From Halobaculum roseum (GTDB lineage Archaea; Halobacteriota; Halobacteria; Halobacteriales; Haloferacaceae), in NCBI RefSeq assembly GCF_019880245.1, contig NZ_CP082286.1, positions 310,001 to 374,000 of the forward strand: a DNA stretch of 64,000 nucleotides. Reading direction: 5' to 3'. Of this stretch, positions 24,768 through 40,768 are shown piece by piece. Made by a program: the position numbers and the translations under genes. Below the pieces are notes generated by a model. That model had not been told where the DNA came from. It made no database searches and worked only from the letters and a program-made list of their open reading frames with translations. The first letter of the stretch is position 1. The number at the start of each line of letters is the position of its first letter.

Positions 24768-24909
24768 GCGTCCGTGGTCGTCGCTTCGGCGGTTAGGTGT
24801 TCCGGGAATTCGTGAGATCGGTCGTGGGCGGTGGTGGTCGCGTGTCGGGTATCGTGGGTGAGAGGAGTACGGTGGTGACGACCCAGAACGACATCTTGGT
24901 GACGACCGC

Positions 24910-25040
24910 GAAAGCCCCCGACAGTCTCGTGGCCTGCGACTCGCTGCGCGCTTCGCACTCGGTCGCTCCGCTCCCTCGTGCTTCGGTGCTTGCCTCGTCT
25001 CGGCTCACGAGACTGTCGGCCCCTTTCAGTCCCACCCACC
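24910..25040 (-). ncRNA. Structured intergenic element, copy A (GTGGGACTGAAAGGGGC family)
   Basis: Read on the minus strand, the leader GGTGGGTGGGACTGAAAG (25040-25023) is followed by GGGC, a 13-base arm CGACAGTCTCGTG (25018-25006) and a loop of 74 bases. The perfect complement CACGAGACTGTCG (24931-24919), then GGGG and CTTTC (24914-24910) close the structure. GAAAG pairs with CTTTC, leaving a GGGC/GGGG internal loop. The copy at 40549-40664 has the same plan with a different arm sequence, so pairing is conserved rather than sequence. It could be a non-coding RNA or a non-coding mobile repeat; no transcript evidence is available. Confidence 0.6.
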
Positions 25041-25340
25041 ACGACCGCACCGCCGCCTCACTTACGTCGGAGCAAGCTCCGACGAACTCACACTCGCTTC
25101 GCTCACGGCTCACTTCGTTCGCCGTTCGCAATCGCGGTCTCATTCCATTCGACCGCGCACCGCTCGCGTGAGCCTCCCCAACCGACTCGCCTCGCTGGCT
25201 CACGGGTCGCTTCACTCGACCGCGCACCGCTCGGCTCGCCCCTCGCGCGCGTCCGGCCGACACGCAGGTCGGCCGGCGCGCGCCAACCGCGGTTCGTGCA
25301 CACCGAGCAAACAGGGTCGGTGCTCGGCCCGTCCGAGCCA

Positions 25341-25360
25341 GGGTGGGACTGAAAGGGGCC
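25341..25360 (+). repeat. Half copy (B) of the GTGGGACTGAAAGGGGC element
   Basis: The bases GGGTGGGACTGAAAGGGGCC match the leader of copies A and C. The expected distal arm and GGGGCTTTC end are not found downstream before the inverted-repeat unit starts at 25422, nor directly after that unit. This copy is therefore truncated or divergent. Confidence 0.6.
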
Positions 25361-25421
25361 GAGCGTCCGCGGTCGTCGTGGTCCGCTTCGCGGTCGGGGT
25401 GTCGGTGGAATCGACGGATCC

Positions 25422-25434
25422 GGCTCTGTTGAAA
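25422..25434 (+). repeat. Left terminal inverted repeat of the IS-like unit
   Basis: GGCTCTGTTGAAA, the exact reverse complement of 26453-26465. Preceded by the 8-base flank ACGGATCC. Confidence 0.75.
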
Positions 25435-25603
25435 CCCTTAAGAACTGTCAGGATTGGCGTGTGAGATACAGCGGATTCATTCTGCAGTAATGTTTATTGT
25501 AACGACGTTCCGATTCGGAGAGATATGCATGAGAATAGCTCACAAGCACTAATCGTCCGACGATCGAGATGTGACCTCCCACCGACCAGGTGAAGTAAGC
25601 GAC

Positions 25604-26359
25604 ATGCCATCGGAGACTGACACCACCGCGCCCATTCGACGCTACGCATTCTACGTCGCCGTCGCCGTCACCATCGCCTTGGTGGGCGTCTCACTTGGCC
25701 AGTTTTTACCCAATGCCATCTCTGGGTGGACCGGCTCCCTCGGCGATCGCTCGATTTTTGGTCTGGTCCTCATGGCCGGTTCTTGGACTGCCTTGTTCGG
25801 TATGGCGGTCCAGTTCTACCGCCCCACCGAGCGGGTGAACGCCATCCTGTTGCTGCCCGTTGTCACGGTTCTTTCCGGGGTCATCGGATTTGCGACCGGC
25901 ACCATATTCGCTGTTGAAACCCTCCTCATAGCTGCCATCACCCTCGTACCGCTGGTGCTGCATCCGGCAGGACGGTCGGTGCTTCGATTCGATCGCGTGG
26001 GGTCGCCGAACCGGCTGCTGGTCGGCCTGTACGCCATTGGTGCCATCTTCATGATCGTCTACTCCGGCCAAGAGTTCGTCAAGCAGTTCACGCTCACCGG
26101 CGAAGACGTCCTCAGAGGGCACTACAGTGACCTCGCCATATGGGCGTTCTCTATTGCAGTGTGGGGCGGGCTGGCAGTCTTCCGACGGCGTGACTGGCGA
26201 TTCGCCGCCTGGATGTCGGGGTTCGTCGCCCTCTACCTCGGGGTGAGTTCGGCGGCCTTCCCTGATGCAACATCGAGCCTCGGGCTGGCCGGCGGCGTCT
26301 CGGTCGCAGCATGGGCCGTCGCCTTCGTCGCCATGACCGAGCGTGTCCGGGGTCGGTAA
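25604..26359 (+). CDS. Multi-span membrane protein inside the IS-like unit, function unknown
   Basis: A 251-residue hydrophobic protein (MPSETDTTAPIRRYAFYVAVAVTIALVGVSLGQFL...) with about eight predicted membrane spans separated by short Arg-rich or acidic loops. I recognise no family motif. The ATG at 25604 is preferred; GTG at 25571 would add eleven residues. Upstream TTTATTGTAA at about 25493-25502 may be a TATA element. Codon use has more A/T-ending codons than adjacent genes, consistent with transfer. It lies wholly within the inverted-repeat-bounded 25422-26465 unit as a passenger gene. The antisense frame 25706-26392 is a shadow. Confidence 0.7.
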   Translation: MPSETDTTAPIRRYAFYVAVAVTIALVGVSLGQFLPNAISGWTGSLGDRSIFGLVLMAGSWTALFGMAVQFYRPTERVNAILLLPVVTVLSGVIGFATGTIFAVETLLIAAITLVPLVLHPAGRSVLRFDRVGSPNRLLVGLYAIGAIFMIVYSGQEFVKQFTLTGEDVLRGHYSDLAIWAFSIAVWGGLAVFRRRDWRFAAWMSGFVALYLGVSSAAFPDATSSLGLAGGVSVAAWAVAFVAMTERVRGR

Positions 26360-26452
26360 CTCGATACGTCCGGTACCATCGAGCAATCGCACGTTCGCTG
26401 AATTAGCGCTCTATATTCGGCACGTTCCCCAAAACACACCAATATTTGAGTA

Positions 26453-26465
26453 TTTCAACAGAGCC
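26453..26465 (+). repeat. Right terminal inverted repeat of the IS-like unit
   Basis: TTTCAACAGAGCC, the exact reverse complement of 25422-25434. Followed by ACGGATTC, matching the left flank at seven of eight bases. Confidence 0.75.
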
Positions 26466-26583
26466 ACGGATTCGGAACCGACAGGTCCGAATCAGACGGG
26501 TTCCGATCGGACAGCCGACCCCCACGAGTCGAACGCGGACGGCAACACTGATACCACACACGCCACTACCCACCCTCCGTCAG

Positions 26584-40367: not shown

Positions 40368-40768
40368 GCGCGACTCGACCGCCTTCTGCGATAACCGTTC
40401 TCGAGGGGGAGCGACGCGTTTCTTCCTGTCCGTTGTGGCGCGTGCCGGCGAGCCTCCGTGCTCGCCGGACGCGCGCGAGGGATGAGCGACCGAGCAGCAG
40501 CGAGGGAGCGAATCGGTTGGGGAGGGCGTGGTTGCGGTCGGTCCTGTCGGGTGGGACTGAAAGGGGCTGCTGCTCTCGATAGGCGAGCCGACGCACGCAC
40601 CACAGCGAACGAAGTGAGCGAGGAGCACAGCGAGGCGCAGCCATCGAGAGCAGCAGGGGCTTTCCCGGAAGATCACGTGGTTGTAGCAGTGACAATAGTT
40701 CCGGCAACAGAGAACGTCGATCCCCACGAACGAAACCCTTACCCACCGAACGCGACCACTCACACCCA
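40368..40768. other. Intergenic region with hairpin and structured element, no gene
   Basis: Contains the perfect hairpin CCGGCGAG-N8-CTCGCCGG at about 40450-40473, then the complete structured element copy C (40549-40664). Open frames here (for example 40458-40772) are built from the repeat and have no family signature. Confidence 0.6.
40549..40664 (+). ncRNA. Structured intergenic element, copy C (GTGGGACTGAAAGGGGC family)
   Basis: The leader GGGTGGGACTGAAAG (40549-40563) is followed by GGGC, the 13-base arm TGCTGCTCTCGAT (40568-40580), a 62-base loop, the perfect complement ATCGAGAGCAGCA (40643-40655), GGGG and CTTTC (40660-40664). Compared with copy A the arms differ at seven of 13 positions and every change is compensated on the opposite arm, while leader, internal loop and terminal CTTTC are unchanged. 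Loop sequences are also related. It ends about 105 bases before elp3 on the same strand. Transcription is not shown. Confidence 0.6.

Follow-up and report, generated by a model that had tools for sequence, protein, structure and literature searches.

In the Bacillus cereus group, IS231 and its MIC231 relatives (IS4 family) combine modular insertion sequence ends with variable passenger genes, with or without a transposase. Excerpts of PMC2266710 and PMC6542083 describe these cassettes as relying on an active transposase, and the former states that the modular aspect was not seen in other IS families. Mobile insertion cassettes are treated in parts of PMC6542083 and PMC3129680, the latter also covering transporter ISs. 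The haloarchaeal set that we describe here shares the organization of IS231/MIC231 but is archaeal, goes with an IS5 transposase and an 8-bp duplication, has other ends, and carries its passengers on the far side of the transposase; it is best read as an archaeal IS5 counterpart of the Bacillus system.

TIME and TIME-COMP elements are also similar, in that transposase-free ends acquire a variety of core genes and carry them along (PMC4133298, excerpts), yet they are bacterial, with Tn3 ends, 5-bp duplications and two whole miniature elements as borders. For haloarchaea, the excerpted text of PMC3119063 describes MITEs, among them an ORF-containing ISH2 type, as well as MITEs that are mobile in the absence of a functional transposase. 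ISH2/HqIRS32 thus resembles the present unit as a haloarchaeal transposase-free element with a short ORF, but as described there it forms one ~520-bp family with a homologous ORF and no series of unrelated passengers. The haloarchaeal IS5-like elements ISHla2/ISHxa2 bear the same end as our unit (GGCTCTGTTGAAA, 52 bp upstream of the transposase start codon, in their left end) and encode a transposase, whereas the unit does not. The IS6 family has a similar-looking tip sequence and 8-bp duplications but a different transposase, its archaeal members in two clades are 700-750 bp long, and a single passenger-carrying member is named in the excerpts of PMC7986276. Among the titles and abstract openings returned from an open-licence library, we found no account of such a haloarchaeal set.

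The unit beside priS and its passenger gene

The window, by which we mean the whole 64-kb stretch of DNA that was analysed, contains at 25422-26465 a 1,044-bp transposase-free unit with transposon ends, exactly as a sequence-only reading had described it. The perfect 13-bp inverted ends of that description were recovered as exact copies of GGCTCTGTTGAAA at 25422-25434 (+) and 26453-26465 (-), with inverted homology between the two ends reaching 20 nt at 85%. Its 8-bp flanks with one mismatch likewise stand, with 7/8 identity between the left target-site duplication ACGGATCC (25414-25421) and the right copy ACGGATTC (26466-26473). A search for exact inverted 13-mers spaced 60-7000 bp apart, with flank identity of at least 7/8, returned this pair as the sole one in the window. 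Moreover, a 70-bp end profile built from 54 ends, all of other genomes, covered both window ends nearly full length (nhmmer), delimiting a left end module at 25422-25480 (+; outer terminal repeat GGCTCTGTTGAAACCCT plus a subterminal part; E 1.2e-7, profile positions 1-66) and a right end module at 26399-26465 (-; E 2.6e-9, profile positions 1-69), with no third match in the 64 kb up to E 10. At the inner side of the left module lies GTGTGAGATACAGCGGATTCATTCTGCA (25459-25486, +), by eye a putative degenerate form of the GTGCTGAATACAGAG...TTCAGCA border of relatives, and at the right one GTGCCGAATATAGAGCGCTAATTCAGCG (26396-26423, -), the best match to TGCTGAATA, with 1 mismatch.

Between the ends lies the passenger gene (25604-26359, +), a 251-aa ORF at 25604-26356 followed by its stop codon. 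A simple hydropathy count predicts 6 spans for its product, in line with the multi-span membrane protein proposed earlier, and the A/T-richer codons noted at the same time are borne out by a GC3 of 0.76, compared with 0.92 and 0.94 in the two neighbours of the unit, priS and an eIF2B-like/ribose-1,5-bisphosphate-isomerase-like gene. The unit as a whole has a GC content of 0.586, versus 0.701 for the window. The protein search that had been proposed shows the ORF to be a real gene family, with matches in 56/391 genomes of the class (E<=0.001, host genome included), the best match outside the host having 44% identity; a search of genome contigs with the single 251-aa protein gave no match, and one with a closer alignment gave two loci. 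No Pfam family was assigned to the protein. In an alignment judged by eye, histidines at columns 49, 52 and 168 that are near-invariant in relatives are replaced by R, F and L, so that the function of the window protein may differ or be decaying. A structure prediction from three sequences gave a mean pLDDT of 42.8 and a pTM of 0.30.

Other identities for the passengers were rejected. A match of the window protein to the magnetosome protein MamI (E 0.0063, 16 bits against a cut-off of 80) is ascribed to chance. PADLOC, searched for defence genes, matched no model to this protein and four weak models (Csa3, CARF3--CARF_TM) to 1/50 proteins each. Within the passenger ORF, the 13 bp at 25911-25923 repeat the inner left-end sequence (CTGTTGAAACCCT) exactly; the residues A-V-E-T-L that they encode are not shared by aligned homologues, and the match is probably a coincidence.

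The sequence-only reading had held that the gene occurring elsewhere without the ends would count against the unit. This is how it does occur: ends bracket 0/31 other homologue loci in the fetched stretches (29 loci with 1.5 kb flanks, plus L294 and L295). Among the 29, L022 and L040 have a single end nearby and none has a pair; no ends were found at L294 and L295. Relatives of the passenger are otherwise chromosomal or plasmid-borne, and their lack of bracketing ends indicates that the passenger derives from the ordinary gene pool, which leaves the unit itself intact.

The host genome is probably Halobaculum-like, as the same-genus genome G146 and H. magnesiiphilum NZ_CP081960 have the homologous gene at almost identical coordinates. 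The priS locus is present in all 10 congeners. In the 8/10 for which both neighbours were located, these anchors stand 93-155 bp apart, versus ~1.78 kb in the window. The exact empty site could not be resolved to the base in these relatives, since ~0.65 kb of the extra DNA lies beyond the ends of the unit, at 24815-25413 and in a shorter piece at 26474-26520, and is also specific to the host genome. The former segment, ~0.6 kb of non-coding DNA absent from congeners at this locus, contains a 22-bp perfect inverted repeat that includes GTGGGACTGAAAGGGGC, a sequence found again at 40551-40567 of the window, and is possibly another mobile repeat.

The transposase that goes with the ends

From the ends and the duplication length, the unit had been placed in the IS6 family, a placement that the distribution of transposases contradicts. 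IS6-like transposases match the host genome in six places, and the four 212-aa host copies terminate in GGCGGTGTTCAGATAAG and not in GGCTCTGTTGAAA. The transposase in elements with the latter ends is a 273-aa IS5-family enzyme (NF033579 E 1.1e-64; PF01609 E 2.3e-18), for which some plasmid records give the label IS5-like, ISHla2 or ISHxa2 family. We examined end position in 31 loci of this transposase, and found that at identities of at least 73% the end lay exactly 52 bp upstream of the start codon in 24/24. Loci of 69-70% identity carried GGCCTYGTTGAAACCCT at -53/-54 (3/3), those of 44-48% identity carried GGCTCTGGTGAATC (also given as GGCTCTGGTGAATCGCT) at -62 (2/3), and the one locus of 33% identity had no end. 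The end sequence thus shifts with the identity class of the transposase, indicating that the ends and the IS5 enzyme vary together. By eye, the inner borders of the window unit seem to resemble those beside the ~70% transposase clade.

The 8-bp duplication (7/8 in the window unit) fits IS6 but is not specific to it. In the ISH1 group of IS5, target duplications are 8 bp long, and of 26 loci of the present transposase, 11 have a right end in reach with a 7-8/8 duplication, of the same 8-bp length as that of the window unit. An IS1595/ISH4 source for the ends was rejected, as three host IS1595 regions contain no GGCTCTGTTGAAA-like end with up to 3 mismatches.

The end sequence is thus common to the window unit and to transposase-bearing members of the ISHla2/ISHxa2 group, while the unit is not itself an autonomous IS5 element: no transposase of this type was found inside it or, at E<=0.1, in the host genome. 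Within the genus, 6/11 genomes searched have a match to the enzyme. With 1044 bp and a conserved 251-aa gene, the unit differs from the short, non-coding elements known as MITEs. It has the IS ends, the passenger gene and the lack of a transposase of mobile insertion cassettes; the combination of a transposase with an unrelated passenger, which defines transporter ISs, is found in 11 of its relatives.

The search for further ends in the host genome that the sequence-only reading had proposed turned up two more transposase-free units, both on contig C2 and both with perfect duplications. Unit B (147022-149178; GGACTTGC, 8/8) encodes a 520-aa candidate beta-helix-like lipoprotein; in an empty-site search its right flank was found in two Halobaculum plasmids and its left flank was not. 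Unit C (115439-117880; ACCAGGCC, 8/8) encodes a formate/nitrite transporter and a TrkA-C protein. End-like sequences lacking a partner occur in the host genome at C2:37439 (E 7e-4 with the end profile), C1:2208567, C1:1500868 and C2:196125.

Sister units, their passengers and signs of movement

Passenger units of this kind had been thought to be rarely described in haloarchaea. The 13-mer occurs in 48/59 sampled genomes of the class (host included), the reversed pattern being matched once overall, and 22 of the 31 units called below lack the transposase, so that the units themselves are anything but rare. We surveyed 1,256,836 bases (1.26 Mb) in 35 blocks, most of them picked for holding the 13-mer, so that densities are not genome averages. 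An end profile built with the window ends left out gave 156 matches in this DNA and 0 on the same DNA reversed. Allowing up to 2 mismatches per end and 60-7000 bp between ends yielded 94 inverted pairs, of which 31 had flanks of 7-8/8 identity, 25 of them perfect; with the left flank shifted by 1-20 bases, the mean fell to 0.1 units. The 63/94 pairs without a duplication comprise cross-pairs between units and old or recombined copies. Two of the 31 units are nested in one locus (G011); the end of one of the two is related yet distinct. At three extra plasmid loci, we found one pair with 6/8 flank identity (L302) and otherwise unpaired ends. The count of 22/31 units without a transposase match refers to this IS5 enzyme alone and not to every transposase family.

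The units share just ~65-77 bp at their ends. The 11 transposase-bearing elements (1238-2042 bp) have 11 different passenger regions, with no mutual blastn similarity. Passengers across the set are nearly all unrelated and mostly membrane proteins: by simple rules of our own for ORF choice and span count, the main ORF has at least one predicted span in 32/41 units and at least two in 25/41, compared with 27% and 12% of random windows from the same blocks (n=347). These 41 units remain from 44 that were called or fetched once two duplicates and a 125-bp unit lacking an ORF are removed; the G011 pair had been taken out of the span count beforehand. Among 65 picked ORFs, similarities were limited to shared cassettes and to two zinc-ribbon-like small proteins at 35% identity, whose genes lie in units of two genomes (L129:599-814 and L136:1728-1937). 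Pfam families were scattered, and included a transporter, TrkA-C, SBF/arsenic-resistance-like, Rhomboid, cupin, HTH and flavin oxidoreductase. At the small end of the size range, 125-bp miniature elements at G040:C10:856264-856388 and G003:C2:187230-187354 are 86% identical, the latter copy lying within a larger unit, 17 bp in from its end. We read this archaeal set as mobile insertion cassettes with IS5-type ends, widespread and with nearly one passenger per copy, of which the window unit is a modest, perhaps stranded member.

Several units bear traces of movement. In G008, a transposase-free cassette of 462 bp (duplication AGACAGAC) has a counterpart in Halorubrum ezzemoulense, a 463-bp copy that is 88% identical and has the flanks AAATTGGC/GAATTGGC. 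A 1249-bp unit with an ACR3-like gene in G036 lies inside a multicopper oxidase gene and is flanked by two copies of GTACATCC, and 2/2 aligned named plasmid records run without a gap over the rejoined junction, with one copy of the duplication.

Other pairs are consistent with exchange between carriers. The passenger of unit C is identical at 2323/2362 positions (98.3%) to a Halorussus halophilus plasmid, where its carrier, 3325 bp long and flanked by two copies of CTAAAAAT, includes an IS5 transposase. Over the outer 42 bp of the left end the two carriers agree at just 24/42 positions, and the place of the Halorussus transposase is taken in unit C by a 38-bp end. Similarly, the ACR3-like gene also occurs in a 3424-bp transposase-free element of Haloferax lucentense, together with merA and with GAACAGCA on both sides, and there the inner identity of 959/1042 falls to 32/43 at the outer right end. 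In both pairs the change in identity falls at the subterminal border motif GTGCTGAATA, which suggests that recombination may take place at this motif, either through ordinary homology or through a dedicated process. We considered and rejected a palindrome common to all inner borders (4/34 motif-group ends score at least 7, versus 1.8% in shuffles), and we regard the inner border as a conserved motif rather than a universal stem. Of the two partner elements, the Halorussus one (L284:3459-6783) looks mosaic, with one end of each end type and a post-transposase region like that of the ~70% clade, and the one from Haloferax lucentense pSVX82-3 (L285:162-3585) has an HTH gene, merA and an arsenic-resistance gene within a perfect 8-bp duplication.

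A cassette probably moved in trans, and its alternatives

We favour, with a probability of about 0.85, the reading that the window unit is a mobile insertion cassette that has no transposase of its own and is moved in trans. Two ~70-bp ends of a haloarchaeal IS5-type family (ISHla2/ISHxa2 group) would enclose a gene that was captured from the chromosome and encodes a membrane protein with six spans; an IS5-type transposase provided in trans would bind both ends, and the segment would be cut out or copied and then inserted with an 8-bp target duplication. Passengers may be exchanged by recombination at the subterminal border motifs. Mobilisation by a related transposase is supported indirectly by the sister cassette present at two sites. 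With the helper transposase absent from the host genome, the unit is probably stuck in place unless a helper is brought in, for instance by a plasmid.

A bolder and rather unlikely extension is an integron-like cassette economy of haloarchaea run by an IS5-type transposon, in which nearly every copy would hold a different gene and swaps would occur at TGCTGAATAnAG...TTCAGCA or, in a sister group, at GCGGTCARTACAG; the stock traded between carriers with and without a transposase would be the unrelated passengers, for the most part membrane proteins.

We consider it improbable that the unit is instead a relic, an element that once had a transposase, lost it by deletion and can no longer move. 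The mismatch in its duplication, the lack of a helper in the host genome and the three near-invariant histidines lost from its passenger would suit such a history; against it, transposase-free units with perfect duplications are common, their short ends do not look by eye like plain deletions of the transposase-side end, and one of them is found at two different sites, indicating that such units move as such. More doubtful still is a composite of the TIME-COMP kind, in which two independent miniature elements beside a resident gene were later moved as one. One relative has this appearance (G013:C1:1671682-1674706, a 3025-bp unit with an 8/8 duplication that keeps the inner ends of two short elements), but in the window unit the profile finds the two outer ends alone and no inward-facing second pair, although inner pairs may have decayed. 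We give very little credence to an IS6 derivative, in which an IS6 transposase would have moved a passenger lying between IS6 ends: the pattern GG..CTGTTG..AAA resembles IS6 ends, IS6 elements make 8-bp duplications (PMC7986276, excerpts) and IS6-like copies exist in the host, but those copies end in GGCGGTGTTCAGATAAG and the unit's own ends stand at a fixed distance from an IS5 transposase in 24/24 loci. A chance inverted repeat around an ordinary gene can be dismissed, given 4 matches to GGCTCTGTTGAAA with up to 2 mismatches in the window versus 0.37 expected, the sole qualifying pair there, 31 surveyed units versus 0.1 with slid flanks, and an independent profile that finds both window ends.

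Annotation based on transposases misses such units, which are open to testing in tractable Haloferax hosts. A merA mercury reductase gene and an arsenic-resistance gene lie together in one transposase-free member, and the same transporter pair, at 98.3% identity, is found in two haloarchaeal families. Haloarchaea exchange genes heavily, and a transposon family whose copies nearly all differ in their small gene and mostly lack the enzyme is a concrete vehicle for that exchange.
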